Source: Chloranthus sessilifolius (lineage: Eukaryota; Streptophyta; Magnoliopsida; Chloranthales; Chloranthaceae). From it: a DNA stretch of 64,000 nt. Each line of letters opens with the position of its first letter. Position 1 is the first letter of the stretch. The notes below the pieces were generated by a model that ran no database searches, had not been told where the DNA came from, and saw only the letters and a list, made by a program, of their open reading frames with translations. This document shows, in pieces, positions 184 through 61,947 of this stretch. A program made the translations under genes and the position numbers. The DNA is taken from the NCBI GenBank assembly GCA_021018995.1, contig CM037587.1:3412866-3476865 (forward strand). Direction: 5' to 3'.

Positions 184-193
184 ATAAGATAAC

Positions 194-592
194 GGTGGCG
201 TTATTTGTACTCATTTTTTCTGTGAAGAACACATTCTCTTTCACAAGAAAAAAACATTAATTGTCTTAAATCAGACGATGGAGATCGTTTTTCATCCCAT
301 TCTTCACGCAATAGATCTTGATATTATGGCATACCTATTGGACGGTCACATGCTGATTCCACATGGCACACATCCAAAAGTGATGGTGTGATAGGTACGC
401 CCACAATCACGATCAGTTTTGGGGAAGTCATGTGCCATGTCAAATCACAATCTGACCATCTGATAGAGTGCCATGATATCAAGATCTACTATGTGGAAGG
501 TTGGGCAAAAAAATGATCTCCATCGTCTAATTCAAGGCAGTCAACTGTATGCATGTTTGTCACAGGTTTAATGAGTGTAAATAATGCTACCC
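194..592. mobile_element. Fold-back MITE, family I, full copy
   Basis: About 400 bp whose left half is the reverse complement of its right half. From the outside inward each arm carries a CATTATTTACACTCATT-like terminus, a CAGACGATGGAGATCG word, TTTTTCATCCCA, AGATCTTGA, and a CACATGGCACACATCC word near the centre. Termini begin GGTRGC. Flanks show only a weak 9-bp resemblance (TAAGATAAC and TAAGAATGT), so the Mutator-like assignment rests on the better copy at 24929-25325. Confidence 0.65.
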
Positions 593-1064
593 TAAGAATG
601 TAATCCTTTAGAATCCTAAAATGGAAGGAGTCTCAATGAAATTATAAGGCTTTTTTATTTATTTATGGTAGCTTTTAAGGTTCTTAAAAAATAGGAGAAG
701 TTATTAGAAGTTCCTTATTTGTTTAACTTAAAGAGTCCTAGTTTAATTAGAGGTCTAGTTATAAAAAGTTATAAAATATAGGAATACATAAGGAAGAACA
801 TGAGGGTAGATAGAGTAGCTTAGGGGTATTTTATTCCTAAACTATGAAAACACTAAAATTGACATAAAGAAGAGGGATTCGTGCTTTTATATAATAGTAA
901 GATAAAAATATCTAACACATTGTCATAGTTGCCTTCATCATCATTATATATTTCAACTCCTCTCATGCCTCTACAAGTTAACTTTTGATGGGCTTCAAAG
1001 ACCTAAAATGGAACCTCATGTAATGCCTTGAACGCCCCCATTACGCTTCCTACGTATTTTTCAT
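593..1064. other. AT-rich intergenic stretch, no gene seen
   Basis: No open reading frame with recognisable content and no clear repeat structure was found here. It is AT-rich sequence between two fold-back MITEs. Confidence 0.5.
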
Positions 1065-1524
1065 GGATACCTTTATTTTTAGCTCGAGATTCTTTTCTCA
1101 TGGATACCTTTATTTTTAGCTCGAGATTCTTTTCAACTCGGGGTTTATATCTTTAAATTTTTTACTGTTTTGACTTAGATGATAAACATAATGTTTTTCT
1201 CTCAATCTTCGACACAGTAGATCTTTAGATCATAGTCTTCCCATCAAACGGTCATATTTTGATTACACGTGGCACACATCTTGAAATGAGATTTGAGAAT
1301 CACGTTTGATGTATGCAATGATTATGTTCATTTTTAGGGATGTGTGCCACGTGGAATCAAAATCTGATTGTCTGATTATAGGCTCATGATCTCATGATAT
1401 ATTGGATCAAAGATTGGGACAACAAAAGATCTCCATTGTTTGATTTAAAATAGTCAATGATTTAAACATGTAAAACTCAGCTTGAGATATGAAAGAATCT
1501 TGAGTTGTGTAAATGAAGGTACCC
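1065..1524. mobile_element. Fold-back MITE, family I, with a duplicated left terminus
   Basis: Complete inverted-repeat copy with termini beginning GGATACCTTTATTT on the left and, read inward on the other strand, GGGTACCTTCATTT on the right. The first 37 bp of the left terminus are present twice in tandem (starting at 1065 and 1102). The central words CACGTGGCACACATC and GTGTGCCACGTGGAATC face each other. Confidence 0.65.
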
Positions 1525-1636: not shown

Positions 1637-2242
1637 ATAAAAAATGGACAATATTATATGCTGGCAGGTTTTGTGTAAGCAGCTAACGTGTCACGACATA
1701 ATTAGTTGCAAGTGCAGTGGGGCCCAAGCAATACAGGCTGGGGCACGTCAGCCGCCTACACAAAACTTGTCTGCCACTTGTAAAGAAAAGCCATTACCAG
1801 TTGGTTATACGGGTTGGGAGGGGTGGACATGACACTGACCTAACTTCTGAGGTCTCGAAAGGACATAATTTTTTATAGAAATGTCCGTTTATTAAAGTTA
1901 TCTATCGTTTTGGGGCAACTCGAAATGATGCATTCATTTATGATATTTATATTTTGATCTCTAAATCAAGAATTATAGACCTCTTTAAGGAGTTGTGCAT
2001 ATTCTTAGAAGTAAAATGGCTAATGACCCAATTGAAGAAAGTTTATCATTTGAAAACTTTATATTATGATAAACCAATATTTCACAAAAAACATGCTAAT
2101 GAAACTAATGACCACTTACAAACCAAATTTGTCTTTGCAAGGTATTTGCTCTTAAAAATGATAGAAACTTGAGAGTTTGAATCTTTGATTAATGGCAATT
2201 GTGTACATTGTCAAATAAAGAAATTTTATTAGTGAGCATCGG

Positions 2243-2600
2243 TATGTGGGCCGAGTGCTAGGTGACTTGGTACTCGAGTGACTTTTTTAAATGTGTACCA
2301 TACCAAATCATCATGTGTGAGTGCGCCATATTCTAAAAGATCTTAGATGCAAAAGATTAGCACTAAAAACTATCTCCGTCATATTAGATCACAGTTAAAC
2401 ATGATCTAAAATTAACCGCTATCAAGCAAATCCAACATATTAATATCAGACGATCAATCACATCTTGAATCAAATGTGGAGGTGTAATTCGATCCATTTT
2501 TTTTGCATCAATGTCATGGGCGTCAAATCACGTAGAACACATGATGATTCCAAATGACATATATCCTAAAAAGTGACCCAAGTACTAAGAGCATCAGCAG
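2243..2600. mobile_element. Fold-back MITE, family II (inside-out arrangement)
   Basis: Inverted-repeat element in which the GAGTGACTTTTTTAAATGTG word lies near the outer left end and the mirrored CCTAAAAAGTGACCCAAGT lies near the outer right end. The GATCTAAAATTAACCGCTA word sits in the middle. This is the opposite order to family I. It is old: the two arms match only in blocks. Confidence 0.5.
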
Positions 2601-2848
2601 TACTCTTCATAGTACCAATATGGTCCATGAGTTGATATTGGAGCCGAGCACCATATACCTTAACCTCACTTTTTACGCACAAAGTGACTCCTCTCAGAAC
2701 TCAGAACCCGCGCTTTATCATGACACCAAGCAACAGCCCCTTCTAGCTTCTATAGTAATATAACGCATTAGCCATTCAAGTTATTTTCTTTTGCTTCACT
2801 AAAATGTGGCAAACAGATCAAATCATGTACTACAAATTGTAGATTGTG

Positions 2849-3396: not shown

Positions 3397-3818
3397 GGTA
3401 GCTCTATTTGCACCTACAAAATCTCTAAGCGCATCAAGCATGAAAACCATTGACTGCTTTGAATTAAATGATGGAGATTATTTTTCCAATCTTCCAATAG
3501 ACCGTGACTGCTTTGAATCAGACGATGGAGATCGTCTTTCATCCCAATCTTCCATATAATGGATCTTGAGATCATACGCATACCATTAAACAGTCAGATT
3601 TTGATTTCACATAGCACACATACTGAAAAGTGATTGCAGAATCACGTTTAATGTATGCAACGATCATGTTCATTGTTTGGGATGTGTGCCATATGAAATA
3701 AAAATATGACCGTCTGATTAGAGGCTCGTGATTTGTGCGGAAGATTGGAACGAAAAATAATCTCTATTGAATGATTCAAAGTAGTCAATGATTTTCAGTA
3801 GCAGCCACTTATTATGCC
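3397..3818. mobile_element. Fold-back MITE, family I, with internal arm duplication
   Basis: Full copy. The left arm contains two tandem versions of the TGACTGCTTTGAAT-to-CAATCTTCCA block (around 3450-3505 and 3508-3556). The right arm has one. The centre has GCAGAATCACGTTTAATGTA facing its partner. Confidence 0.6.
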
Positions 3819-3880: not shown

Positions 3881-4249
3881 GGTATTACTACCACACCACT
3901 TTTTGTTACAGCCACCTCATTAAAACAAAATAAGGACCGCTGATTGCTTTTAAAATCCATTGACTACATTAAATTTCATTTTTTTTCCGTCTCAATCTTT
4001 CCCACCATAGATCTTGAGATCATGAGTTTACTGTCAAATGATCAAATGTTGATACCCTGTGCCACACTTCCTAAAAAGTGAACAGGAATCAGGTTTGGTT
4101 CATGTTCACTTTTTGGAAAGTATGCCATATGAAATCAGCATATGACACTAGGCTTATGATCTCAGGACATTGCCTGAAAGATTGGAATGAAATATAATTT
4201 CTTTATTTAAGTGTGGTGGTTGTAACATAAAGGGTGTGGCAGTAACATT
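3881..4249. mobile_element. Fold-back MITE, family I variant with different termini
   Basis: The core words (CCATAGATCTTGAGATCATG, CCTAAAAAGTGAAC and their mirrors) are family I, but the ends are different: TTACTACCACACC on the left matches TTACTGCCACACC read inward from the right. It is a subfamily with exchanged terminal sequence. Confidence 0.6.
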
Positions 4250-10124: not shown

Positions 10125-13100
10125 ATGAGTATCTCTGCTTGGAATTGTCAGGGGCTTGGGAACCCTGGACAATTTGTGCCCTTCGTCACCTGTTGACCAC
10201 AAAAGCTCCCTCTATCCTTTTCTTAAGCGAAACAATTTTATGCTCTCAAAGGATGGAAAGATTGAAATGACAACTAGGTTTTCAAGGTGGGCTGTTCATG
10301 GATTGTTGTGGCGGATCTGGGGGATTGGCTCTCTTATGGAAGGATGATTTTCTGGTTAATATTCAATCGTTATCGATGTCTCATATCGATGCTACGGTCA
10401 GTGATTCATTAGATGGTATCAAGTGGAGGCTTACCAAAATCTATGGTGAACCAGATGCTAATAAAAAACCAACGGACATGGGACTTGCTCTTCAATCTCC
10501 ACACTAGTACCCTCCTGTGGCCAGTGGTCGGGGATTTAAACGAAATTTTATTTCAGCATGAAAAAAGTGGTGTAAGACAACGAAGCTGGAATCAAATGGA
10601 TAACTTCAAAAGGTGTTTAGATGAATGTGAACTCTTCAACCTAGGCTTTGAAGGGCCAAAGTTCACTTGGAACAATGGCCTCGAAGGAGCGGAGTATGTG
10701 GAAGAACATCTGGACAGGGCTTTAAGCAATACTAGATGGTGTGAGATATTTCCCAATTACAAGGTTAGCAACCATGTCACTTCAAATCAGATCACTATGC
10801 TATTCTCCTCTCACTCTACAATGACTTGGCTATGCAAGTCCAAGGGGTCAAGCCATCCTGTTTTGAAGTTATGTGGTTATGGGAGAACGACATTGAACAT
10901 CTGATTGAAAATCAATGGAGCGACACAACACCAAATACTGAGTCAAGGCTTAACTATCTCACAAAAGCTGAAAAACTAATGCATTATCTACGGGCATGGA
11001 ATAGGAACACATTTGGGAATGTGGATCGCAGGATATCTAAAAAGATAAAGGACCTGCAATCCGTGTTAGCAAAGCCGGGATCACATGTTAAGGAGTTAAA
11101 GATGGATATCAATGAGTTGTTGGAACGTTAAGAAACCATGTGGCGACAGCGATCAAGAGAGGTATGGATGCAATCTGGTGACAGAAATACGGCTTTTTTC
11201 ACTCTAAAGCGTCAGCAAGAAGAAAGAAAAATCATTTCAAAGGTTTGTATGATGCTAATGGGATTTGGAGAACCAAGGGCGAGGAGGTACAGCAAATCGT
11301 TCACCAGCATTATAGCGATTTATTCTCATCAACGGCATCGGACGCTTACCCGGAGGTGTTATCAACGGTTCAACCAAAGGTGACCAACACTCACAATCGA
11401 GCCTTAACTCTTGAATATACTTTTACAAAGGTACTCAAAGCGCTGACCCAAATGCACCGCCTCAAGGCACCAGGTCCCAACAGTATGCCCGCTATTTTCT
11501 TTCAGAAATTTTGAAATATTATTCATGTTGATGCCCTCTCTACTGTTCTCGGTTTCTCAATGGTAGTGCTGACATATCAGCCATAAATCATACCCACATT
11601 GTTCTCATTCTGAAAATTAAAAATCCAAAATGTATGAAAGACTTTCGGCCTATTAGCCTATGTAATGTTATTGATAAAATAATTTCCAAGGTGTTGGCTA
11701 ATAGGCTAAAAGCTATACTCCCTTCCATAATCTCCCCTAACCAGAGTGCGTTCATAGCCGAAAGACTAATCACTGATAATGTTTTAGTGGCCTATGAGAT
11801 TGGCCATTTTCTCAAGATGAAGCGAGTGAGTGCCAACGGATATTACGCTTTGAAGCTGGACGTTAGTAAGGCATATGACCGGGTTGAATGGACCTTCTTG
11901 GAGAAATGTCTTCTAAAAATTGGCTTTAATCTGAATTTTCTAGCCTTGCTTATGAAATGTGTATCGTCAGTCTCTTTCTCATTTCTTATTAACGACACTG
12001 TCACTGGTAATTTAGCCCCCTCTCAGGGACTCAGGCAAGGAGACCCACTATCACCTTATCTTTTCATTTTATATGCAGAAATTTTTTCAGCTATGTGCAC
12101 TAATGCATTGTATGAAAGAAAGATCTTTGGGATTCAAATATGCATAAATGCTCCCAAAGTCGCCCATCTCCTTTTTGCAGATGACAACCTTCTCTACTTT
12201 AAAACTAATCAGAAGGAAGGAAGTGAAATTCTTTGATTACTCCATAAATATGAAGAAGCGTTCGGGCAATTGATAAGTTTAGAGAAATCTTCGATGACCT
12301 TCAGCTCTAATGTCACATCTCAGCGGCGACGAGAACTACAAGAGTTATTCTCCATAAAATATGCTAAATCGCACGAAAAGTATCTTGGACTACCTTCCTT
12401 CTTGGGTAGGTCTAAGAAACAAAGTTTTGGCTACATAAAGGAGCGAATTTTGGGGAAGTTGCAAAGTTGGACGGAAAAGCTTCTTTCTAAAGCGGGTAAG
12501 GAGACACTCATCAAAGCCGTAGCTCAAGCGATACCGACCTATGCTATGAGTTGTTTCCAGCTTCCTACCGGATTAATTAATGATATTAATGCCTACATTT
12601 CACGATTTTTGTGGGGACAATCTCAAAAATTTCAAGATATCCATTGGCTGGCTTGGAAAAAAAATTGTAAATCAAAACAAGAGGGAGGTTTGAGATTCAA
12701 AGGCATGGTGGCTTTTAATAAAACCATGCGATCTAAGCAATTCTGGTGGCTTATTACTAATCTTCTATCTTTGGCAGCCAAAATCCTCAAAGCGAAGTAC
12801 TATAAATCTTCGTCCTTCATGAAATAAAGTCTGGGGACCAATTCCTCTTACACATGGAGAACTATCTGGGGTACCAAAGAGGTCTTGAAGAAAGGCTTAC
12901 TAAAGCGGATTGGCAATGGGAGGAGTACCAAAATATGGGGAGATAAATGGATTCCACGCACCTCAACCTTTGAAGTTCTCACTCCTAAAGAAGGGCTACC
13001 TTTCACTTCTGTCAATGATCTTATTGTTAGCCAACCTCAACGATGGAATGTTGATGTAGTCATATCCCACTTCAGGCCGTAAGATGCTGCCGTCAACCTC

Positions 13101-14210
13101 CAAATACCTCTGCCAGAACAAGAATGCGAAGATAAACTAGCGTGAGCCTTCACACAAAATGGAAATTTCACAGTCAAAAGTGCATACTATGTTGCTCCAA
13201 GTATGAGGCTGCATAACTGAAGTTTTGCGGGTTCAAGCAGTTCTTAACCTAAAGCGCTATGGAAGAGGCTGTGAAAATGTAAGGTGTTGAATAAAGTTAA
13301 ACTTTTTGCCTGGCGTGCTAGCATGGACATTCTCCCAGTCCAATGCAATTTGGCCAAAAAGATAATTGTAGATGATGCTATCTGCAGGTTGTGTGGAATG
13401 CCCCAGAAACAACTATCCACGCTCTTAAATAATGCCCTTCTACGGCTCGGTTTTGGTATGGATCATCTTTGGGGCTCAGATGTGAAGATCATAATGCAAG
13501 TAGTTTCTATGATTGGCTCCCAATGGTTCTCTTGGAGATGGAAGAAGTCCTAGATAGATTTATTATGATAGCGTGGGCTATCTGGAACTATCGTAACAAG
13601 TTGGTGCTTGGTGAAAAGACTGGAGACCCAATCCATTAGATTCAATGGGCGGAGGCCCTTCTAAATAAGTTTATTGGTGCTAACACGAACGCAGTTATAC
13701 CTAACTCTCATAATCCTAATGTTGGGTTATGAACCAAACCGATCCCGAGTCACTACAAGGTTAATGTGGATGGAGCTTTCAAACAGACTTGGTCTCTAGC
13801 TGGTGTTGGAGCCGTTATTAGAGATTATGATGGTAGGGTACAAGCTTCGATGCACTCTGGCCATAAAAATATCATAAGCCCTCTTCACTCGGAATTGCTT
13901 GCCATTTGTTGCAGTGCTCACTTTGCCCACGATGCTGGATATCAAAACATCATTCTAGAAAGTGACTTTCTACAAGCTGTGAATGTAATCCGAACCCCTG
14001 AAGAAGATCGCTCAGCCCTTACAATGCTCATCAAAGAAACAAAGCTGATTCTGGTGAAATTTAATCTTATGTAGTGCACCCATATTTCTAGGGAGGCTAA
14101 CTTAGTGGCCCATTCTCTGGCTCAACTTGGTAAATGTAGTACTGATTTCCTTGTTTGGATGGAGGATGTTCCTCCTTTCATTATCGATTCTGTAAATCAT
14201 GATTTAAATT
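10125..14210 (+). pseudogene. LINE ORF2 (endonuclease, reverse transcriptase, RNase H), broken
   Basis: Begins MSISAWNCQGLGNP, the classic start of the plant LINE apurinic-like endonuclease. GDLNEI near 10540 is the catalytic Asp-Asn motif, while the later SDH motif has decayed to SNQ. The reverse transcriptase covers about 11630-12235 with FRPISLCN, LRQGDPLSPYLF and FADDNLLYF (the catalytic Asp pair is kept, Ser replaced by Asn). A connection/thumb region follows to about 12830. A C-terminal RNase H begins at VDGAF near 13763. Several stops and frame changes break the frame, for example at 11130 and 12235. Confidence 0.8.
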
Positions 14211-15529: not shown

Positions 15530-16400
15530 GGGAATAAGCTCATAAATTAAGTTAAGCATACTTAAATTAGTTTAAACATATTTATTTAAGCTCACTGAGA
15601 TTAAGTAGGTTGAGTATACATGTTTAATTCACTAAAGCATGCTTAATTAGGCTAAGCTAAGCAAAATTATTCAGGCTAAACATACTTAATTAGTTTAAGC
15701 ATACTTAATTAGACTAAGCAATATTATTCAGGCTAAACAAGATTATTTAGTTTAAGCAGGGTTAATTAATTGGACTTAAGCAACATTAACTACGTTAACG
15801 AGGGTTAATCAGGATTAAATAGAGATAATTAGGTTAAGGGAGTCATTATTTGCACTCGGAAATGAGGCCCTTGCATCGAAGTTAAAGAAAGACTTTGAAT
15901 CTTAGGGATATGTGAAAATGCAAAATACAATATTTATCATATGATCTATTGTTGTCAACCGTTGAATCAAATAATAGCCTTTGACTATATTTAATCACGT
16001 GATGAAGATTATATTTTGTGCTAATCTTTTACAGTTAATATCTTTAAATGACAGGCTCCAAATCAAACGGTTTAGATGGTGTTTTCATATAGCAGAGGTC
16101 GCCAAACTTATAAGTGCTTGTTTTAAACTCGGTGCAATGGCCAAGTTTCCGAGTGCAAGTAGTGGCTCCCTTAGGTTAAGAAGAATTAATTAGGGTTAAT
16201 TAGGATTACTTAGGTTAAGCAAGGTTTATCTAGGATGAACTAGGAGAACTAGGTTTAGCAAGGTTAATCAAGTTTAAATAAGATTAATTAGGTTAAACAT
16301 AATTATTAGGTTAAGCATGAGTAATTACACTAAACAAGACTAATTTAGCCAAAGCAAGATTATTTTATCGTAATCCTTCTTAACTATCTTAATTATATTT
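15530..16400. repeat. Degenerate TTAATTAGGTTAAGCA-type minisatellite
   Basis: Dozens of loosely repeated words such as TTAATTAG, AGGTTAAGCA and GGTTAATTAGG fill 15530-15837 and 16171-16400. A MITE at 15838-16170 splits the array. It resembles a telomere-like repeat in base content but is not the plant TTTAGGG repeat. Confidence 0.6.
15838..16170. mobile_element. MITE family III, Mutator-like, with 9-bp target duplication
   Basis: 333 bp with matching ends: GGGAGTCATTATTTGCACTC on the left and GGGAGCCACTACTTGCACTC read inward from the right. It is flanked by TTAGGTTAA on both sides (15829-15837 and 16171-16179). Because the host array is itself rich in that word, the duplication is supportive rather than decisive. 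No coding capacity. Confidence 0.65.
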
Positions 16401-19394: not shown

Positions 19395-19660
19395 AGAGTC
19401 ATTACTGGGGCACACAAAGTTGGCCCTTCACACAATTTGAAAGAAAGACTTGGTATTTTGGGAATGGGACGCTTTTTTCGCACCCACTTAAAATAAGTGG
19501 GAGTGAACAGACGTTCCCAAATAAGTGAGCGCGAATAAGGGAACCTCTATCATGTGAGAACACAATCTAAGCCATATGATTTGCAAGCCGTGATATAAAA
19601 ATCTTTGCTGCAAAAGATTGACACAAAACACGATATCTATCATATGATTCAATATTATCT
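19395..19660. mobile_element. MITE family III fragment with a tiny fold-back inserted
   Basis: The AGTTGGCCCTTCACACAATTTGAAAGAAAGACTT stretch at 19418-19452 matches the arm of the family III copy at 56950-57272 in blocks. At 19467-19519 a 53-bp palindrome opens GGGACGC and closes ACGTTCCC, with CACCCACTTAAAATAAGTGG at its centre. Confidence 0.45.
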
Positions 19661-20697: not shown

Positions 20698-20915
20698 GGA
20701 TACCGGTATTTGCAACTGAAGATTTAGCCTCCGCAGCCCGGAGTTTCTGCTGTGAAATTCGTTGACTGCCTTGACTTAGCCGATGAAATCGTTTTTTGTC
20801 CCAATCTTCGACACAATAGATCTGGAGATCATGGCCCACCTATTAGATGGTCAAATGTTGATTATGCATGGCACACATCCCCAAAAGTGATCGTGATCAT
20901 GGGCGCACCATGAGA
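20698..20915. mobile_element. Fold-back MITE, family I, left half
   Basis: Only the left arm is present: GGGATACCGGTATTTGCAAC terminus, CGTTGACTGCCTTGACTTAG, ACACAATAGATCTGGAGATC and CATGGCACACATCCCC. The right arm is missing. Confidence 0.55.
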
Positions 20916-21229: not shown

Positions 21230-24200
21230 TCAAACCGAAAGCTCCTGTTTCATTTGATCTCTCAAAACTCTTCTCAATATCTTATTTGATGCAGTTCGAG
21301 GAAACTCCGGAAGGATTTTGACAAAGCTCACCTGTTTATGGGCAAGAGAAGAAATATCAAACCAAAAACCAACAATCACAGCTGTGATTATTTTATTTTT
21401 TATTTTTTTTATATTTCATTTGGCATAGCAGTGACCAGTGTTACCTAGGCACTTCTACTCTTGGGATTTTTGTCGTGTCGACACTTGGTGGCACTTGGAC
21501 ACTCCTCAACACAACATGATACTTCTAGACATGTATAAAAATATAATATAATATCATTAAAGTGCTCCTCGTCTTGACACGATAAAATGAATCGTCATTT
21601 TATTATAAAAAAAAAAAAACTTTGCGTAAAGTTTAGTAACTTATAAAATAAAAAGTTTGGGTCTTTGAAAACGATTTGTATAATATAGTATACTTTTAGT
21701 TAAGTTCATGGCATACATTTTGTATCTTTTCATTATATATCTCAATAGGCTTTCTAAGATGTCCCTTCAATTTTATTTTTTTCTATATATGTTCTATTTT
21801 TTTTAAAAAATATTATTTCTCCTAACGCCGTGACGCCATAGTGCAATCTTTAGAAATTGGCATGCCAAACATCTATGACACTTTGACACTAGGTACTTGT
21901 GCCACGTGTCTAGGTAACACTAGCAGTGACAAAAGAACTTATTGTATGAGCAAAGGAATAGATGATAAAGTAGCAAATACGATACCTTAAACAGAGGATT
22001 AAGGTTACTCTGGATAACACTCGAAAATTTTTGTTTCAGCAGATCAGGTCCAGGGTTTGTTCCATTCTTTAGTACCACCAATATAACCAATTGCCCGGGT
22101 CCACCGGTTACAGGGGTAATGCTAATTGCAGCCATCTCCAATATGTTATCATCAGCTTTATTGCACACGCGCTCTATCTCAACTGAACTTGTCTGCAAAC
22201 AGGAAAACCCATCGAAACCATAGTGTTGAAAGTTTGGCCAATGAGTGCCTTACTAGAGAAGGAGTTTGTTAGTTATATAACTCCGAAATGAAAAATCTTA
22301 AACCTTATTGACCACCACGATTTCAGTTGAGTTAGTATTAGCTACCTGACTCAAACGCTGGCACTCTCGGCACTAAAGTCACTTTTTAGGATGTGTGCTA
22401 TGTTGAACCATCATGTGTTCCATGCGATGTGATACTGTGGTCTCAAGATTTACTTCGTAAAAGAATAAAATGAAAAAAGGTTTTCGTCAGCTGATTCAAT
22501 GCATTCAAACACCATCCAAAATTAACGGTATGTTTGATTTACATGGTAGCCATTAATTTTAGATGGAGTTTGACGGATTTGAATCTGACAATGGATATCT
22601 TTAGATCATGGCACATCGATTAGAAGATACACATGTTAGTTTCACATGCCACCCATTCCAAAAAGCGACCTGAGTACCAAATCACTTAGAGTTCACGCGG
22701 GTTACCTAATACTACTAACTCATTCTCTATGTCAACCATAACTTGCCCCCCTTAGAAGAAAATCTTTGCTCTGCCACTGACTAAAAGGTATTACATTCAT
22801 TTACATCTAGATTATATATGGGGTGTTTCATGAAAAATCCCTGCTTGTTACCTTAGGGCAGGCACATAGGAAAACATGATACCTTAATACCGCCAAGATT
22901 CATCGTATCGTCAGCCCTACCATGTACTATGATATAGCCACCAACAGTTCTTTGAATTATATCTCCATGTCTCCTTAGTACCTAGCAACAAAAGCAAGTC
23001 ACAATAGATCTTATTTTATAAACCATGCAACTCAAGGTAAATCTTTGCAATAAACCAACTTTTCCGTTATGTATCTCCATCGGGAGGGACATGAAACCTT
23101 CCACTCAATGTTGACAACTCGGTTATTTTTTAAAGGTGTAAGATTAAATTTTCCCCTCTACCAAACCAAAATATTATACTTTCAATATATATAGTTCAAT
23201 ATAAATATATATAGGAAAAGGGTTGCATGCCCCAATGGTCCATGTGGAGCTCGGATGCATTGTTCAAATCAATTATATAATATATATATATCAACTGTGA
23301 AGGGAGAAATTGGTGATGGATTCATTTGCACTTTATGCTACAACTAAACATACGTGAACCAAAGATTTATCCATACGAGATGATATTTCCCTACGTGACT
23401 AAGGAAGAGCGTTAACGAGTCTGCAACTAAGGAAAAGGGGAAAGGATGTTCCTGAAGATTGCAGGTTCTCCGGGTTGGTCGAGGAGACGGTGGAACACCT
23501 ATTCTTGAGATGTTAAGTTTGCATAAAAAAATTTGAACTACTTCTTGAATTGGTTTGGTGTTAGTGGATGTATCGGAGAATCCTATGCAGTGGTTTTCTT
23601 TGGCAATTTTTTAGCAAAAGCTTTCGTAAAATAATGGGAAGAAAGAGAGAATAAGATAAATATGAAAGGTTAACAATTCACATTGGTCTATTTAGATGAA
23701 GGTGATAAGCAAAGATTTCGAATCCCTTAGCAGCAAATTTTTGTATGAGAACAGAGATGTTTGTCGTCTCCTTACACACTTTTCGGAGAACATTGAAAAC
23801 ATAAGGTGGAAAAAAGACGAGATGGTGGCAAACTCAAACCTAACTCGTAATAACACAACATAATCCAACAGGTGGCATTTATTTGATCCATAATTTATTG
23901 AGAAAATTCATACTGCCAGGTAAATAACATAAATTAGGCTCCCTTTTCCAACAGATTTGAGTAATGACTAGGATTAGGGGTGGCAATGGGCTGGGTAGCC
24001 AAGCCCAGCCCACTAGGCCCGGCCCGATTTAAGGAGTGACGCGGGACGGGAACCCTAAAATGCATGAATAATGATTTAATGGAATGTTGCCAAAATTAAA
24101 AAGATTAAATCAACCTTAATCGCAAAATTATCTCAATACCTTAGGGTTCTGAGAAATCTGATAGGCAGATCACGCAAGATCCAGCTAGAGTTCAGTCCGA

Positions 24201-24878: not shown

Positions 24879-27800
24879 CTGTCATATAGGTCATGGAATC
24901 ACATCATCTAACTTAATAATTTTCCTTTGGGTACTTCTGTTTGCACCCACAGGATTGTTGAAAGCATCTACGTCTGCCCTTTGACTTCTTGGAATCAGAC
25001 GATTAAGAACATTTTTCACCCCAATCTTCGACATGAAGGATCTTGAGACCATGATCTTACCATCAGAGAGTCAGTTTTTTATTCCACGTGGGACAAATTC
25101 CAAAGATATGGCCCTAAAATCAAGTTTGAGCGTGATGTGTCATGATTTTAGGATCACTTTTTGGGGATCAGTGCCCCGTGAAATCAAAAAATGGCCCCTC
25201 TGATGGTACGCTCATGGTCTCAAGATCCATTGTATGAAAGATTGGGGTGAAAAATGATCTCAATCATCTGATTCCACACAGTTCAATGGGTTTCAGTAAT
25301 TCTGTAGGCGTGAACAGAGGTACCCTTTTCCGTTTACATGCTAAACATTAATATCCATAATCAGTCAAGATATGTTCTCACATAAGGAACTCCACTCTCA
25401 TCAAGGATGACAAACCCGGCTGACATTGATGGTGTGCTAAATGCTCCAAAAGCCTGTGGTTGCAGCATGCTTCCTTGAATGTAAGAAGATGCAAGTTCTG
25501 TTCCACCACAACACTCAATAATAGGTTTATAAGATGACCGTGAAGAGAGCCACAAATCATCATCAACATTGGACACTTCCCCCGTAGAAGCAAATGCTCT
25601 GGATGGAAAAATATGTAAACTTTTTGTTGAGACCAGGGATTTAAAGACCGATACATCTCGGCATATCAGCTGGGTCCCAGGCCGATATGTATCAGATATA
25701 TCAGATACGTGTCGGCCAAACCAGCCAATATTAAAGTAACTTCCTTTTATTTTTAAAATATTAAACATATGGAAAAAATTTAAAATTGCCCAAAGGGCAT
25801 TTTCGATATTACATCCGATTCATATCTGATATTTATCCGATACATATATCCGGTATGTATCCGATTCATATCCGATATGGACCTGATATTTGACCTTGTT
25901 GACCTGATTTTGCCCCCCTTCACAAAATCAGGGGTGTATATCGAATGGGGCCTAATCCGATACATATCGGCCGATATGTATTCAATAGGGCTGATATTTA
26001 AAATGCCGATATGTATTCAATAGGGCTGATATTTAAAACCATGGCTGAGAATAATATGCAAAAGAAAATCATTAACCGTAGGCAGTTTTTGATAGACAAT
26101 TTTGCAGGCAGCTTATGTGGCGCAACATGACTGGCTTCATTGCTTGGACCCACCTGTGAGTGCAGCCAGTCACGCCGCACTACATAAGCTGCCTGTAAAA
26201 TAGTCTATCAAAAACTTCCTACTGTATAACACTGTCCATATGCAAATGATCACAATGTACATCACAGAGAAAATTACTTTATTTTCGTCCAATCAAGTCC
26301 ATCCATGCAATGAGTATTTTCCCAAGCTTTTACGAGGCTCGGTACAGTACCCAGGACCGTCACACCCGCATCCTGAACATAGATAAGCATACAAATTGGC
26401 TCGAAAACAAAAAATTCAAATAAAATAATAGAACAAAAAATGTTTTAGTAGCTACCACTTGAATAAATTTGCCAAAACCACGATCCAGAGGAGATCCATG
26501 ATAGAGGGCCAAAGTAGCACCAGTAAGAAAGCATGAGTACAGAAAAATTGGTCCCATTACCCAACCTAAATTTGTAGGCCAGCAGTAAACATCTCCAGGT
26601 TGGAGATCAATATGTGCCCATCTGTCGGCAGCACTTCTAATCGGAGAAAGCTGTGTCCATGGAATAGCCTTTGGATCTCCTGCGTGAAGGTGAAGAGAGA
26701 GAAGCAGTTGATGGATGAAAATTCATGAAATAGATAGAAGTTATGTGAAAATGAAAATTTTGTTTACCTGTGGTTCCTGATGAAAAGAGTATATTGGTCA
26801 CAGACTCTACTGGTTGATAAACTGGGGAATAACTATTTGGTCTGCAAATAGATTGTTTTTGAATAGTGAACTACATATAGAACTTAAACAAAAATACTGG
26901 GGCCAAAGCTACTTAGTATGTTTCATATTATGACCATGGTTCAAACCCTCGTCCGAAACTGGTACGTGCCCGGACGATACGTACCGGTTTCAGAGATCAC
27001 CCGTATGATACTTTGAATGTGATACCTCGAAAGATGATCAACTCCTAACAGAAAATCTTTCCATGATAAGTCATGTTCCCTTAGTTCAACTTCCACGTCT
27101 TTTCCAATTGCTGGAATAACAATAGCTTTGCAAGCATTGGCTTCTACGACACGACTACAAGAAGAAGAAAAAATATGAGTACATACTGATACACAAAATT
27201 TTAGCCAATATATGCATACTGAAACAAAATGTATACATCCGTCTTTGACATAGTGAAATTGATTATCCATCACATTTCGATCATGATAACATTCTAATGG
27301 GTTGTTGAACCCATAGGTAAAAATCTCGGAAATCTGATACATATCGTCCAGGCCTCCTGGACAACATGTTTATCGTCTTACCGGCAGATACATCAATGTA
27401 TCACTAATACATTGAATCCAATTTCTTTAAAATATCGGATGATACTTTGAATGTATCATCTGAGATTTTGAAAAAACCAAAATATCAGATGATACAAACA
27501 ATACCATCATTGTATCGTCCGAGATTTTGGACAATACACTGTCACTTAAGTGGCACCCCTTTTTCAAAATCTAGGACGATACTTTGAATGTATCAGCTGA
27601 GATTTTGAAAAAATCAAAATCTCGGATGATACAAATGAGTCAAAGTTTGTATCGTCCGAGATTTTGGACGATTCTTACATGGTACAATACAATGGGTATG
27701 TATTGTCCCGGAATTGTCCGAGATTTTGACCCATGGTTGAACCCACTATATTTTATCAACAAATACCTAGTCCCTCACCACCCATCATCAAATCAGGACC

Positions 27801-30800
27801 AAACAATGATAGATTTCCCAATTACTGGTTATTTGGTTTTCTTGTTAGACACTAGAACTAGATTATATCCTATTTATATAAGCTATAACTACAAAAAATT
27901 CTACCCCATGATGTTGCTATGTGCCGAGAAAGGGAATTATTAATACAGAAATAGTCTAACATATACAATGCAAATGCATTATAATAATATTGACCCATAA
28001 ATATTATAATAGTTAAAATAAATTTAAATTACATGACTTATTTTATCATCAAATAAGTATTTTTTACTTACTAGTATAAACAAATTACTTATTAGTATAA
28101 ACGAATTAACTTGCTTTTCTATTATTCCTCCTTTCTCAAGAAAATGTCACTCTCATCATATCGTACTTTTGACACACTTTCTTTCGCATCAATCTCATAC
28201 GTCTCCCTCTCATATTCTTGTCTCCGAGAGTTCTTTCTTAAAAGACAGGGTATCGTCTTCTCTCCTTATCTCCTCTACTTATTGCTTATTTCTCTTTGAG
28301 TTGGTATTAGTAAGCCATCCCAGCGCCAGGTTCATGGTTCACGGGTTAAGCCATCCCAGCGCCAGGTTCATGGTTCACGGGTCACTTTTTGGGACACATT
28401 CCCAGCTATGTCATGTGACTTGAGATCATGATCAAGAGATCTAGTGAGTAGAAGATTGGGATGAAAAAACATCTCCATCATGGAGTCAAAGCAGTCAAAA
28501 TCCTTTAAAATTAACGGCTACCATGTAAATCTCAAAATGGTCTTAACCAATTATTTTTAAAGGCGTTGACTGCTTTGAAACCATGGTAGAAGTTTTTTCT
28601 TCCCAATCTTCTGAAACATAGATCTCTTGACCATGATCTTCGAATCACATGGCATAGTTGGTGAAACCAAGCGGCATGTGTTCCAAGAAGTGACCTGTGA
28701 ACTAAGGACCAGGCGCTCGGGTCGCTTACCTAATACCAACTCTTTTTCTTTCAACTTTGTACTTTTAAAGACCTATTGAGAGGTTCATTCCAGTAAGTCT
28801 TAAACACTTAAAACCTTTTCTCAGCCTTGTTAGTGCCCTGTTTTGGGCTTATAAACAAGCCCCTAACAGCACTTCTTATGGCCTAATTTTGTGGCTCATT
28901 GAGCCCATAATCGATCCCCTTCTCTCTCTTTTCCCTCTATTCTTCCTCCCCATTGCTCTTTTCTCTATTTCTCTACTCCTCAATCTCAAAGCCTCTTTGA
29001 TTTCATATTCGCTTCATATCTATCATCATCTGATTGAAAAGGTTTATGATCTATGCATCATGTGGCCTAAAAACCAAACTTATTAAAAGATGCTATTCAC
29101 TAGGACAAACACCACTCTCTCCCTTCTTAATTATAAAAAATACCTAGCATACGCTATTCATAACATACAAATATAGCATTCATGATATGAGTATCAAAAA
29201 TAACATTTGGGCCATGTTTTTCTAATGTACACGATTTCTGATTCCATTAATATCAATTTGTTAATCGGTAAAGGACCGGTTTGAAGAGCGACTGAATGCC
29301 AATCAGTAAACCAAATGGTAGAGCATACTGTAGTTTTAAGGATCTAGATTTCAAGATAAATAATAAGCACGATACCCCTTTGTGTATACAATTTAGAGGC
29401 TATTAGAAGCAAGGTATCAGGATTGGTACCAGTATCAGTATCGGGTATCGGGTATCGGTCCATCTTGGACCGATACGTATCGGCACTATGGATATGGTAT
29501 GGCGGATACCGTATCAGTCGATAATTATCATTTTTTAGAAAAAAAAGTATTAAAAATAGAAAAAAGATTTGTATCGGTCAAGACTGAGATAGTATCAACC
29601 GATACGGACCCGTATCGGTCCGATGTCGATAATGTTGAAGTTTAGTTCCACGTTGGGTAAATTATAGCCTTGTCTCCCCTTATAATATCCTGGACCCCTC
29701 CACTCATGGCCAACTGGTTTTGAGACGGATGCCCAAATTTATCATGGTATCAGAGCAGGTTTTTCTCCACTCCACGTCACCCAATTCAATTTTCCACGTG
29801 ATTTGGCTCAGTCCTGCCAACACGTGCGGGCATGTTGAAGTTTAGTCTCACATTGGGTAAATTATAGCCTTGTCTCTCCCCTTATAATATCTCAGGCCTA
29901 ATACGGACGATTCACACGCTAACCCTAAAATAGCATAATCTCGCACGATAGGGGTTAGGGTTCTCAATCTTCAATTAAAACAAGAAAAATAAAATAAGAA
30001 TAACATAGAATATCTTCGGATTCGCTCCAAAGAGACTTGTCGGCTTCGCACCAACGATAACTTTAAATAATCACTCCTCAAAGTCGAAAACTCTTCGCAA
30101 GTTTTCTACGAAAGATTCACTCTTTCACAAGATGAACAAAAGCAACTTAATTTTTTTTATTCATCATCAATTATTTAAAAGTGTTTTTACAAGCCTTTAA
30201 ATAGGCAAAGCAAACCCTAACTCAAAATTAAAGAGTCCTAAAAACTTACAACACTAAAATAGCAAGTTTTGATAGATAAACCCGAAAATCCGTCGTTTGG
30301 CGGACTTGTTTCACGGACGCCCCTCATGTTGTCACAGACCTCCGTCCTCCTTTCACGGATGTCCGTTCTGAAGCCACGGACGTCCGTCATATAATGACGA
30401 ACTTTGCTGCATGGTCCGTTTGAAAGCCCATTTATGTGTCCACTTCTTCCTTATTGATTTTCTTCATTCGACTTGGCCACGACCCAACCATGCGAATCCA
30501 AATTCCTCATCAATCCCCTCTACTTTGAAAAAGTTCGACCTCGAACTTTGGCTGACATCGATGGATGTTATCAGGTATACTTGCTCTTTATCGATCTCGA
30601 ATTTTTCAATGGTCTCGGGCTCGGTAGGGCCTATCACGGATGCTTGTGCTTCAACGATCTCAGGCTCTTCAACGGTTTCGGGACCTGCAACGGTCTCACC
30701 AACCGGTATGGACTCTTCAATCGGACGTTGTTCAGACACAAGATTAATACGAATAACTGGATCTACTTGAGCAACAGGCTCCATCGGTTCTTCTATAGGC

Positions 30801-51800: not shown

Positions 51801-54800
51801 GCATCTTATAGATTCAAAAGAGAGTATCTCACTTTCCAAAAAGTGTGTTCATAGCAGCTTTTGGGTGCACACCAACATTTTATATCCGCACACCACTTTG
51901 TTTTTGGGTGTGCGGGAAGAAAAAAGTGGTGTGCGCGTAGCAACCTTCTTTAATAGCACTAATTCAGACTGAAAGCGACATCTTAGACCCTTGGAAACCA
52001 TTGATTCGTTCTAATCAGATGATGGAGATCGTTTTTCACCCCCATCTTCCACACAAAAGATCTTGAGAACATGGAGCACCTATCACACGGTCGGTGTTTG
52101 ATTCAATGTGTCACAGATCCACAAAAAACGCCCCTAAAATCACGTTTGAGTGTGACGTGTGCCATATGATTCAAGTGCCATTTTATAAATTCCAAAGAGA
52201 GTAAAGTAGTGGTAAACTTGTTGATAAAAAAAATTGTATTTATAATTGCTCTGAGGCACGTAGTTCACTACGTTGTCTTAAAGACAATAGACACCCTCAC
52301 TCAGTCGGATAAACGAAGATGCAATAGGGTTCCCAGCGAATCTGCCTTTAGATTACAACAGAGCCCGGTCTTGCCAAGAACCATATGTTCTTTTCTAGAT
52401 TGCACTCTCTAGAGAAAGAACCTGTCATACAGATTTTCTGACACACAAAAAGATTCTTACAAAATAAGAACGTAAGAAAAGAGGAGAATATATGTTATTA
52501 TAGTTTGTGTTGTGTCTTGTTAACCCGGATCTAATCTCTATTTATAGAGAAAATCTTGAAAGATTGTGTTTTTTCAGATAACCGTGAAGAGATTTGTGTC
52601 TTTTCATATAACAATAAAGAGATAAAATTGATTCATTTGTGTCTTTTCATATTTACGGTGAAGAGATGCAAGACTTGTGAAAAAGACAACAGTAAAGAGA
52701 TAAAATCGATTCACTTGTGTCTTTTCAGATTTTCGGTGAAAAGATGCCTGTGTCTTTTCAACTAACGGTAAAAAGATAAATCAAAATTTGAAAAGGCACT
52801 TTGGAGAGAAAATATTTATAAGTTTGTCATTGAATTATTATCAATATATAATGAAAACTATAAATTTAATTTTGAAATAATAAAATATATATATATATAT
52901 ATTACAAAACTAATATATAAACCCACTTGTTTCAAAATAAAATAAAATAAAATGTGTATCAAAGCGATCACACTAAGCATCATCAGAGGAACCGATCGGT
53001 TGGAACCTTTGACTAGTACATACAACTCAAAGTTTGTAAGGACTTTAAGTAGCTTATAGCTTTGAACTCAAAAACTGGCTAACAAACTGGAATTAAATAT
53101 ACACTTACTATGACCTAAATCATTAGTGACATAAGGCTTGCGATTTACAGTCATGTGCTAAAATTCTGATTTCATGAGTATCTCAGAGAGAGGACTGAAT
53201 CTATGTTGAAGCGACTTCACTTCCATACTCATATAGGTGAATCTATCATGGGTGCTCTTGTAACTACTTTATCACCCCAGCAAATGAATGCCTACAGAAT
53301 CATTAAAAGTTAAACTCACCCTCTCACGTTACAAGAGATGTGCACAAAATTTAGCACCATAAGAATGGTCAATAGGTAACATACCTTTGTGCACTTCCAA
53401 GGGTCACAGAGTAGTTTCTTATCTCGTTGAACTTAGGATTTGAGATCTCCAACTCTACTAAGTTGAGGTTCAACTACTGTGCCTTTAAAGATATCGGTCT
53501 TAGGCCCATCCCCCTCAATATTTTCAACATTATATTTTTGGATAGTGCTTTTGTAAGCTTCAAAACCACTCTGCATCTTTTGTTTCAGTAAACAATGTTA
53601 TATACTATGATTTCGTACTTGAATCAGAAAGACATGTTTGTTTCTAGACCCCCCACGATACTGCTCTTCCTACCAAAGTAAAAATTCATCCGCTTATGGA
53701 TTTTGAATCAGAGGAGTCAGAAATCCAAGTAGCATCAGTAAACCCCTCCAAGAGTTCAAGTTTGCCACTATATTGTAAACTATAATGTATAATTCCTTTC
53801 AAATATCTTAATGCCCTATGAATAGCTTCCCAATGTTCCAACCCTGGGTTGCTAATTTACTCAATACCCCAACTATAAATGTTATATTGGGTCTAGTACA
53901 CTTCATTAAATAGATAAAACTTCTATCTCAGTGACAATAAACTGTAATTTTTTAACTTGTTCAAGAATCAGTTTATCTCCAACCATTTTGAAATCAAAAT
54001 ATTAGAGACAAGAAAAGCCTTTGTAGCTATATCCTCAATTAGATACTTCCTCGCTAATGAATCTCAAAATCTTTAGTAATAGTAAACTTACAAAATGTGT
54101 TGAATAACCTATCATTCAATGCATTGAGGATGTGATCCCGAAAATTTTGATCATCTTCCAGTCATTTGAGTCGAGCATCCGATTCTCCACTAATCGTACT
54201 TTCCGCTATTCCGCTACAGAAATTGGTGGACATGGTGTAATGAGGATGTGAGCAATCTTGAATTGTCGCAAGATAAATTACACATTTTGCGGCCATCTTT
54301 TAAAATTTGACCCGCCAAATCGGTCAAGTTTGATGAGATATTTTTTCATAAACTTTATGCTCTGAGCCATTAGAACAATCTATTGTCTTTAAATTGTTGA
54401 TAAAAAAAATTGATATTGATAATGGCTCCAAGGTACGTAGTCCACTACGCTGTCTTAAAGACAATAGATACCCCCACTCCGTCGAATAAACGAAGATGCA
54501 ATAGGGTTCTCAGCGAATCTGCCTTTAGGATACAACAGAGTCCGGTCTTGCCAAGAACCATATGTTCTTTTCTAGATTGCACTTTCTCCTTCAGGATACA
54601 ACAGAGCCCGGTCTTGCAAAGAACCATATGTTTTTTTCTAGATTGCACTTTCTAGAGAAAGAACCTGACACAGATTTTCTGATACACAAAAAGATTCTTA
54701 AAAAATAAGAACGTAAGAGAAGAGGAGAAATAGATGTTATTATAATTTGTGTTATCTTTTTAACCCTGATCTAATCTCTATTTATAGAGAAAATCTTGAA

Positions 54801-56949: not shown

Positions 56950-57272
56950 GAGTAGGAGCTATTACTTGCACACAAGAAGTTGGCCCTTCCACATGATTCA
57001 AAAGAAGACTTTGCTAATTTGGAGACTTATGTCAAGTGACAACGTCATTTAGCCGTCTGATTCGAAGGCTATGATCTAAAGATTTATGGCACAAAAATTG
57101 GCACATTTCTCGATTGATTATTAAGTCAGTCTTTTGTGTCATAGATCTTTAGATCATGGCCTTCAATAAAATTTAGATATTGCTTTCACGTGTTTGTATC
57201 CCAAAAATATCAAGTATTTCTTTTAAATTATGTGAAGGGTCAACTTCTCGTGTGCAAGTAATGGCTTCCTTC
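56950..57272. mobile_element. MITE family III
   Basis: Ends GGAGCTATTACTTGCACAC and, inward from the right, GGAAGCCATTACTTGCACAC. The arms continue with AAGTTGNCCCTTC and AAAAGAAGACTTTG-like sequence, and TCTAAAGAT words face each other internally. Confidence 0.65.
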
Positions 57273-57509
57273 ATAAACTTATATCAAAAATATTGGGCCA
57301 GAATATTTTTTCCCAACCCGACTCGGTAAAACACCCGAGTCAGGCTGATTGGGTTTCGGTCAGATCAATCGGGCCATTGTCTTTGATAGTTTAAAAAGAA
57401 AAAAATTGAACTCTTTTGCCCTTCATTTCAAGGGTCAAAGACACTGATTTTTTACTCCCAAAAGTTTTGCCCTTATAATAAAAAGTACCTTTAAAACTAA
57501 TTACCAAAT

Positions 57510-57864
57510 CTTTGAATTCACCCCATTGAAACACATTGATTATATTGAATCGGAGGATGGAGATTGTTTATCGCCCCAATCTTTCACACGATAGATCTTG
57601 AGAACATGATCGTACCATCAGACGGACGATTTTTTATTTCATATGGTACACACCCAAAAAAGTGACCTTAAAATCAATTTTGAGCCTACATATGATGTTA
57701 AGGTTATTTTTCTGAGATGTGTCACGAGAAATAAAACACTAACCATCTGATGAGTGGCCCATGATCTCAAGATCTATCGTGTGAAAGATTGGGAGAATAA
57801 ATGATCTCCATCATCTTATTCTACCAAGTCAATGTGTTTCAACGTGGGTGAACTCAAAGATTCG
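57510..57864. mobile_element. Fold-back MITE, family I, full copy
   Basis: Ends ATCTTTGAATTCACC and, inward from the right, ATCTTTGAGTTCACCC. Arms carry GATGGAGATTGTTTATCGCC, CGATAGATCTTGAGAACATG and ACACACCCAAAAAAGTGACC with their mirrors. Confidence 0.65.
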
Positions 57865-58249
57865 GTGGGCCGATTTAAAAGTACTCAAAAAAAAAAAAAA
57901 AACCATGGTATTTGATAGCGTTAACCACCGTATCAAACTAAAAATAATTAATTAGTTTATGATCATGTGCATCGACATAGCTCTTTGAGGATTGGAAGCT
58001 GTTGAACCATTTGATTGATCATCTAATACCGCTTTGAAACATCTGATCAATGACCCAAGAAGTGACCAAAGAGACAATTTTATTTGCATCCGAATGGCTC
58101 CCTAAGAATAAATGAGGGAAAGGGTAATTTTATACATAGTATGAATGAACATCTCAAATAATGTAATGGACGGTGCTAGATTCACTTATATCAAGCTTCG
58201 ATAAATGTACGTTATAAAACAAACCCACGATGATCGATCGGCCAAAATT
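57865..58249. other. Intergenic stretch, 3' side of the small acidic protein gene
   Basis: Contains an A-run at about 57887-57901 and otherwise unremarkable AT-rich sequence. Likely includes the 3' untranslated region of the minus-strand gene that ends at 58250. Confidence 0.4.
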
Positions 58250-58961: not shown

Positions 58962-59383
58962 GGATACCTTTATTTGGTGCGAGTGATTCTTTCTTTGCAA
59001 TCGGGGTTTGTAAATGAGAAAATCGTTCACTGCTTTCAATCTGACACTTGGGATCTTTTTCATCCCAATCTTCCACATAATAGATCTTAAGATCATGGGC
59101 TACCATCAGATGGCCATCCATTGATTCCACGTGGCACGCATCTAAAAAGTGACTCGATAACCGCATTTGATGGTACACGCATGATCATGTTCACTTTTTG
59201 AGATGTGTACCATATAAAATCAAAACTTTACTGTCTGATGGTATGCCCATGATCTAAGATCCCTTGTATGAAAGATTGGAATGAAAAAAGATGTCCAACG
59301 TATGATTCAAAGCAATCAACAATTTCAGCACATGCGAACCCCAATTTCAAAGAAAGAAAGTCTAGTTGCAAATGATAATAATC

Positions 59384-60554: not shown

Positions 60555-61246
60555 ATTGATCATATGACTCAAGTCATGGAAAGTAATCCTATGACTAGAA
60601 CTCTGCATGTTACGTCAAGTGACTTAAGAAGTCAACCTGATGTGATATGCAACCAATGATAGATCGAGTTATGGGGTAAATATATATATATATAAGAAAA
60701 TGATATTTAAGTGTAACAAGTAGCTTTATAAAATAAACTATTAAAATAATTGAAAGGTCAATCCTAACAACAAAAGCACCTGATCGATTGAACTTGATAA
60801 TCTACCAAACAAATATATTTATAAAGCCACCCTCAATCATGGAAATGATATTCAACTGATAAGCCATCTTGGTTTGTGCATCTTCAAACATTAAACTCAT
60901 ATATCTGACTAGCCGTAGAATCTTAGTATATTTTATTGGACAATGCAATGCTTTGCATCTAATAAAGAATCCTAAAAATGCAGGCTTAAAACATATGGAT
61001 GTCAAATGGTGAGGCAAATCAGTTAAAGGTTATGAGTCAGTGGGCCAAGATAAGGCCTAAAATTTAAGCCCAATTCATAATTAGGGTTTATCTTTTTTTG
61101 GTTGTAATGTGGGTATTAGAGTTTAATTTAAATTAGGGCTCCTAGTTTGAATTTGATTTTAAAATTGAGTGCTTATATATAGAGATCAGTATGTGTTTTA
61201 CAAAGAATCTTAAATCAGTGTTTTTCGTAGATGTTCTGTCTAGTAA
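60551..61246. other. Intergenic stretch, no gene seen
   Basis: A short TA run near 60680-60695 and otherwise featureless AT-rich sequence. Confidence 0.45.
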
Positions 61247-61660
61247 GGTACCTTTATTTACAACCCAAGATTCCTTTTTCTCAATCTAGCTTTTAACTAG
61301 TGAATACCGTTAGCTGCTTCTAATTACACAATGGAAACCTCTTTCCGCCCTAATATATCTTGAAATCATGAACCTACCGTCAAACGGTTAGATGTTGATT
61401 CCATGTGACAAGCATCCTAAAAATTAAACGCGACTGTGGGCGTATATCAAACGTGATTATCATCACTTTTTGGGATGCGTACGGCACCACATGGAATCAG
61501 AATCTTACCCTCTGAATGGTAAGCCCATGATCTCAAGATCCGTTGTGTAGCAGATTTGGACGAAAACTAATCTCTATCATCTTCACTTAAAGCAGTCAAC
61601 GATTTTAGCACGTGAAACCTGATTTGAGAAGAAAGAATCTAAGGTTTAGAATAAAGGTAC
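61247..61660. mobile_element. Fold-back MITE, family I, full copy
   Basis: Ends GGTACCTTTATTTACAACCC and, inward from the right, GTACCTTTATTCTAAACC. Arms carry CCTACCGTCAAACGGTTAGA, CATCCTAAAAATTAAACGCG and mirrors. No convincing target duplication. Confidence 0.65.
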
Positions 61661-61947
61661 ACTTGTCCTAATGTTTAATGATTTCCAAGTGTGTTTATGT
61701 GTTGGGCATAAATACATAAAGAGAACCTGTAAGCTCCTATACAATTGTATTCTATGTTATATCATTTTGAGCTAGGCCCAAGCCTCTTTTCACCCTTTAA
61801 TACATGGGATGTGCTTTAGGCCCAATTAAAACTAAATGGCCCATTGATATCCCTATTCACCTGTCTCATCTCATCAATCTTTAGCAACAAAAAGAAATCA
61901 CCTGCGCCAAAATGCGTTGAGTAAACGAAAATTCAGTGACCCCAATC

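Follow-up and report, generated by a model that had tools for sequence, protein, structure and literature searches.

Fold-back MITE families of Chloranthus sessilifolius share a half-unit that is joined in opposite orders

A 64,000-bp stretch of the Chloranthus sessilifolius genome (GenBank assembly GCA_021018995.1, contig CM037587.1, positions 3,412,866 to 3,476,865; hereafter, the window) contains fold-back miniature inverted-repeat transposable elements (MITEs) in which a single half-unit is paired one way round in some families and the other way round in others. The half-unit is approximately 131 bp long, has a D end (TTGACTGC) and an A end (AAAAAGTGA), and is common to families I, II, and III. 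Family I copies carry the D end outside (D-out), whereas copies of families II and III carry the A end outside (A-out). The best explanation, which we hold tentatively and at somewhat less than an even chance, is an old rearrangement in an array of alternating arms, followed by the acquisition of new ends.

Opposite pairing of a common half-unit

The family I copy at 24929..25325 has the ends GGGTACTTCTGTTTGCACCC and GGGTACCTCTGTTCACGCC, is flanked by TTTTCCTTT and TTTTCCGTT (8/9 positions matching), and contains a left half-unit on the plus strand (24979..25110) and a right half-unit on the minus strand (25154..25286), both with the D end outside (nhmmer scores of 106 and 112 bits, respectively). 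In the family II copy at 28298..28742, the inverted repeat of which begins with GAGTTGGTATTAG, the left half-unit lies on the minus strand (28380..28498) and the right one on the plus strand (28564..28695), both with the A end outside (65 and 71 bits); its T-rich flanks, TTTCTCTTT and TTTTTCTTT, match at 8/9 positions. Both copies had been reported in the first-pass annotation of the window and are retained, with their boundaries corrected to the coordinates given here.

Sixteen arms from eight family I copies were used to build a profile (model length, 150), which matched both arms of all three family II copies named in that annotation, on the minus and then the plus strand, i.e., in the opposite pair order. 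The matched arms are 28371-28500 (minus; 52.9 bits, model 6-147) and 28561-28697 (plus; 49.9 bits, model 3-141), 22374-22508 (minus; 56.2 bits, model 8-142) and 22588-22678 (plus; 35.2 bits, model 60-146), and 2268-2387 (minus; 35.2 bits, model 21-147) and 2514-2581 (plus; 22.5 bits, model 76-142). Thus, half of these arms (3/6) are covered nearly end to end, one from model position 21, and two in the A-side half only. The top score in 20 control windows generated by a first-order Markov model was 9.6 bits. With a refined profile, eight D-out and four A-out pairs were found in the window, the latter comprising the three named family II copies and the pair at 57018-57207. The half-unit consensus sequences, compared over 131 positions, are identical at 115 positions for families I and II, 98 for I and III, and 105 for II and III. 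The earlier proposal that a single half-unit is joined in opposite orders is therefore borne out by the profile matches and the reversed pair order.

Two trivial accounts of the similarity were considered. That it reflects chance or low complexity has in its favour the shortness of the words first quoted and nothing else, and is refuted by the profile scores, by the consensus identities, and by the genomic frequency of the 16-mer TTGACTGCTTTGAATC, which has 3,861 exact matches in the 2.17-Gb genome, as against none for its reversed control; we regard this account as negligible. The half-unit might also have been pseudo-palindromic, but it scores 16-22 against its own reverse complement and 262 against itself, and a match to the own reverse complement is absent from all three half-unit consensus sequences.

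Distribution of both layouts in the genome

The genome searched comprises 2.17 Gb in 32 contigs, 15 of which are 96-199 Mb long. The survey set includes the window and 70 further loci of the same genome (71 sources, 346 kb; loci are labelled L001 etc.). Twenty of these loci, each of 10 kb near contig starts, were blind, their positions having been fixed without seeing the sequence; 48 were chosen around places of the 16-mer (8 + 40), and two from a pattern of the A-out junction. In total, 64 D-out and 28 A-out pairs were called, and 24 A-out pairs remained after four calls at junctions between neighbouring elements or of unclear nature had been dropped (L037 at 145, L038 at 810, L041 at 503, and L058 at 618). 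The blind loci contributed 12 D-out and 4 A-out pairs, with any half-unit present in 8 of the 20; the window contributed 8 and 4, the 16-mer loci 43 and 13, and the pattern loci 1 and 3, respectively. The exact A-out junction pattern, which requires two perfect 13-mers 10-40 bases apart, has two sites genome-wide. The opposite layouts are thus found throughout the genome and are broader in extent than the first description indicated; in particular, the profile search of the window revealed family III, an A-out family beyond the two previously distinguished.

Ends, target-site duplications, and type of transposon

Each arrangement had been described as having its own terminal sequence. This holds for the comparison of families I and II, but family I has several ends, at least five kinds of sequence being distinguished by eye in its outer 60-80 bp, and the ends of families I and III are alike. 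The comparison included 30 ends of family I, 8 of family III, and 4 of family II (GAGTTGGTATTAG). The family III end consensus, GGGAGCCATTACTTGCACAC, resembles that of family I, GGGTACCTTTATTTGCAACC, with a mean forward score of 10.01 compared with 8.87 for the reverse-complement control and 9.21 for shuffled sequences (0/60 as high). No resemblance to family I ends was detected for the four family II ends, which scored 9.22 forward and 9.88 reversed, with 16/60 shuffles as high. End type and arrangement therefore do not correspond one to one, since families I and III combine similar ends with opposite layouts.

Plant Mutator-type MITEs are short, carry inverted repeats, and generate 9-bp target duplications, and a 9-bp duplication together with long inverted repeats is a mark of Mutator-type elements. 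Target duplications were sought in 22 elements with both ends recognizable, drawn from 40 pairs plus the copy at 15838. These elements are 316-461 bp long with two inverted half-units of approximately 131 bp each, as is expected of short MITEs with long terminal inverted repeats (TIRs), and the count of the 16-mer agrees with the high copy number of MITEs. The flanking 9-mers match at 8 or more of 9 positions in 7 of the 22 elements, compared with 0.43% of cross-element control pairs, and fall short of this in the remaining 15; the ends were chosen manually, in some cases with knowledge of the flanks, several of which had been inspected beforehand. For two elements (1064-1524 and one at L020) a higher flank score in another register was not counted. 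By family, such duplications were observed for 5/16 elements of family I, 1/4 of family III (a perfect TTAGGTTAA), and 1/2 of family II, the latter in T-rich flanks. Over all 22 elements the mean flank identity peaks at 9 bp (0.556 vs. 0.358 in the control). No target duplication was seen by eye in two further family II copies (at L030 and the first copy at L046). Families I and III, for which 9-bp target-site duplications were thus found, look like Mutator-type MITEs; for family II this assignment is unproven. At L012 (5285-5676), a family I copy flanked by GTCCCCAAA and GTCACCAAA lies inside a family III copy, and hence family I moved after that family III copy was in place. Fold-back (FB-like) elements have long inverted arms with internal tandem repeats; in the present elements, which may or may not belong to that class, the arms make up most of the length, and a partial direct repeat occurs at 3447-3633. 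No Rfam match was obtained in the window at the gathering threshold.

Inheritance of the layouts

Trees of half-units were built with family labels set by hand; they rest on 131 columns, with many forks open, and well-supported branches are referred to as starred. In the tree of 163 half-units, the D label requires 4 changes, compared with 41.7 for shuffled labels, and family III forms one branch (support, 100/83). A single clade of all 48 A-out rows is not rejected by the approximately unbiased (AU) test (p-AU 0.49). In a tree of 87 rows with one arm per copy, the topology that holds the A-out rows together has the higher likelihood (p-AU 0.64).

The two arms of a copy barely exceed arms of different loci in similarity, with identities of 0.748 vs. 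0.697 in family I, 0.683 vs. 0.646 in family II, and 0.699 vs. 0.674 in family III; the pairing is therefore old. The mate is the nearest arm for 10/106 arms of family I, 3/18 of family II, and 2/20 of family III. A fresh inverted duplication at each site is ruled out by the arm identities. The layout is thus an old family trait that follows descent, rather than the outcome of recent recombination at individual sites; a single switch to A-out is possible.

Origin of the A-out families

The first-pass annotation had left two routes open: joint use by a transposase of the ends of two adjacent copies, or rearrangement of a fold-back. Closely related is the reading that a copy of family II or III is no more than two adjacent family I copies viewed between their centres; family I ends would then be expected in the A-out centres. 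Partly fused adjacent family I copies do occur; at L037 (2-630), two family I pairs with a single end sequence between them were recognized by eye. In addition, the family I outer parts scored z 3.1 against family II centres, and the z values of centre arms compared with those outer parts were 9.8 in the forward and 5.9 in the reversed orientation, but in these comparisons L030 stood in both sets. When L030 and L046 were left out of the family I set, the family II centre arms scored 12.65 against family I outer segments, compared with 11.94 for random genomic segments (0/60 as high), and their reverse complements scored about the same (12.57); the excess therefore looks like composition rather than homology. 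The family II centre motif, GGTAGCC...TTAATTTT, resembled a family I end at first sight, but its seven matches in the 346 kb (up to 5 mismatches) comprise five family II centres, the II-like copy at L001, and one unrelated site at L028, and none is the outer end of a D-out copy. The loops of family I do not match the outer parts of A-out copies (z -0.3 and 0.6), and families II and III show weak scores with each other (outer parts, z 2.8; centres, z 2.1), one L030 centre having stood in the family III set of these comparisons. Family III centres were also tried as family I ends, but at L005, L008, and L029 the loop instead matches the D end of the module itself (0/300 shuffles as high); the value for loop W15 was 0.013, and for the remaining 7 of 11 loops the values, between 0.06 and 0.78, were too high to pass. 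The centre of some family III copies is thus a third, partial D end (clearly for 3/11, with one more at 0.013). The centre, loop, and flank tests have low power for short, old flanks. Given that no oriented family I end was found in the A-out centres, the derivation of family II from two adjacent family I copies, or from their facing ends, is not upheld, and we consider it very improbable.

Rearrangement of a fold-back is preferred, because arrays with both junction types exist. At L030, four half-units follow one another in alternating order between family II ends, which places a D-out pair without its A ends between two A-out junctions. Loci L005 (1150-2682) and L071 (806-2333), situated 9.4 Mb apart on one contig, share an array that comprises seven half-units and contains junctions of the D-out as well as the A-out type (84% identity over 1,562 aligned columns). 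These arrays show that half-units have been gained and fused, and it is possible that mixed arrays were intermediates.

The sequence of events that we tentatively favour is as follows. The elements would be fold-back MITEs of small size whose mobilization in trans is most likely due to a presumed Mutator-type transposase that recognizes the outer ends, with the half-unit of approximately 131 bp serving as a shared arm cassette. An old array of alternating inverted cassettes may have been rearranged through unequal exchange or template switching between its arms, and the product, possibly by a single switch from D-out, would have been a unit with A ends outside in place of D ends. This unit could have gained or kept mobilizable ends, i.e., GGGAGCC..., like those of family I, in family III, and the dissimilar GAGTTGGTATTAG in family II, and would then have been amplified as families of its own. 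A more specific form of this rearrangement, which we regard as unlikely, is that one ancient circular permutation, or a half-period shift, of the alternating array turned a fold-back MITE inside out; such a unit would be viable since mobility would need only a short, exchangeable outer end, and the arms would be portable cassettes that found families when ends are swapped.

Several observations weigh against the array rearrangement. In the 163-row tree, at least two changes of the D label and two of the II label are imposed by starred branches; a single switch is thus allowed rather than demonstrated. The free 87-row tree has 5 changes, of which starred branches force one for the D label and two for the II label. 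In the first tree, of 91 rows, there are 3 A/D changes (p-AU 0.23), and the family II rows of L001 and L014 fall among family I. None of the trees recovers family II as a clade, although its monophyly is not rejected where tested (p-AU 0.12 and 0.13), and its one target duplication lies in T-rich flanks. Fusion at a later time, or nested insertion, may account for the arrays. Finally, no flank beside the module was shown to be common to D-out and A-out families except for the I/III ends, so that the array step leaves no direct scar.

Some of these points would fit independent capture, in which different Mutator-type ends took up the half-unit separately, and in opposite orientation, into their long inverted repeats. 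The lack of demonstrated flanks common to families I and II, the two changes forced by starred branches, and the many end types seen by eye around one module all agree with it, and a study of Mutator-like elements (MULEs) indicates that acquired sequence can enter their extended TIRs (PMC3310237). Against capture, families I and III resemble each other in their ends although their modules are placed oppositely, the half-unit tree does not reject a single split, and uptake into both arms would need explaining each time; we consider capture possible, if rather unlikely. The similar I/III ends and the opposite order would both be covered by another scheme, in which an asymmetric parent, with one half-unit between two ends, underwent inverted duplication of either end, the one yielding D-out and the other A-out copies. 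Galileo elements of the TIR1-F1-F1-TIR2 form, described as products of copying one end to the other (PMC3573991), offer a precedent. Yet an intact parent of this kind was not seen among nine lone half-units inspected by eye, one of which (L006) is ambiguous; several retain part of the partner arm, and most look truncated. We hold this scheme to be improbable, and rearrangement within an alternating array remains our preferred account.

Further copies and neighbouring features

Nine other family I sequences were delineated in the window. The copy at 193..592 is D-out with 3/9 matching flank positions, the right half of another copy ending near 181. The copy at 1064..1524 has a tandemly duplicated left end (flanks 4/9 in the register used), in that at 3397..3800 part of the D end is repeated once more in direct orientation (3447-3496) and the right end is uncertain, and that at 3885..4245 has a different end type (TTACTACCACACCACTTTTTGTTACAGCCACC). 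The copies at 57483..57886 (end type GAGTACTTTTAAA; flanks 6/9), 58962..59320 (right end lost near a TTA repeat), and 61246..61662 (flanks 2/9) are accompanied by a left half at 20698..20891 and a single half-unit at 51999..52126, both on the plus strand, the right half of the latter being mostly lost.

Among A-out copies, the family II copy at 22329..22721 has the ends GAGTTAGTATTAG, half-units at 22378-22508 (minus) and 22589-22670 (plus; model 55-135 only), and flanks matching at 4/9 positions. A diverged family II copy with uncertain ends lies at 2233..2605 (half-units 2278-2385, minus, and 2464-2578, plus). Within 1.3 kb at locus L046 (1-1301) lie three pairs of family II, of which the last is like the first, including the flank (ATTAAGAAGAGAAAAGCAAA). 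Family III is represented by the copy at 15838..16170, with ends GGGAGTCATTATTTGCACTC, the 9/9 target duplication, and a left half-unit that by eye is internally deleted; by the copy at 56954..57269 (half-units 57018-57104, minus, and 57112-57207, plus; flanks 5/9); and by a left half at 19395..19655 (half-unit 19540-19655, minus), which by eye is interrupted by another insertion and lacks the right half. A longer A-out relative of family III was found at L002 (546-1136), with half-units at 546-643 (minus) and 1027-1136 (plus) separated by a spacer of approximately 380 bp.

Between the copies at 24929-25325 and 28298-28742 lies a compact inverted repeat (26075-26225) with 65-bp arms that are 85% complementary; it is apparently unrelated. 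Degenerate repeats of the ATCGGATGATACTTTGAATGTATCA type occur in both orientations at 27421-27667, apparently representing a different repeat family, beside what we take to be an acyl-activating-enzyme gene. By eye, the open reading frames at 10413-14074 resemble a long interspersed nuclear element (reverse transcriptase, RNase H), and those at 47495-50109 a Copia-type polyprotein.

Implications and comparison with known systems

It is an open question how new MITE families originate that have long inverted repeats and ends differing from those of related families. In the present case, families of opposite layout and different ends can be linked through a conserved arm, and new families may have formed when an older one was turned inside out and acquired new ends; the copies, which number in the thousands, could be used to date and order the steps. 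For repeat annotation, approximately 130 bp common to several families would call for caution, since clustering may merge or split them wrongly. To our knowledge, no plant Mutator-type MITE with one half-unit in two opposite orders is known, and within the literature and terms searched we recognized no description of such an arrangement.

The nearest plant parallels are the Mutator-like elements with multiple long TIRs of tomato, Arabidopsis, rice, and maize (Ferguson and Jiang, 2012; PMC3310237). In that study, repeats as large as an entire TIR have undergone duplication, amplification, and rearrangement, as here, and aberrant transposition using one external and one internal TIR is discussed; the extra TIRs, however, are mostly in tandem, unlike the mirror-order cassette with differing ends reported here. 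The arrangement of a tandem-TIR MULE, with an external and an internal TIR similar over at least 100 bp, was not found, the usual copy being one pair of half-units and the array at L030 alternating. In the excerpted account of Tetris and DAIBAM of Drosophila virilis (PMC4079207), a modular fold-back element shares the final portion of its TIR with a different MITE; the common part there is the end and not the arm, and mirror order is not described in that account. Galileo of Drosophila belongs to the P superfamily of flies, and an inside-out pair of families is not described in the portions of the reports available (PMC3573991, PMC4168063). Those same portions nevertheless document for this fold-back-like element TIR exchange, chimeras, and the recruitment of inner sequence into the inverted repeats, in which respects it resembles the families of C. 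sessilifolius.

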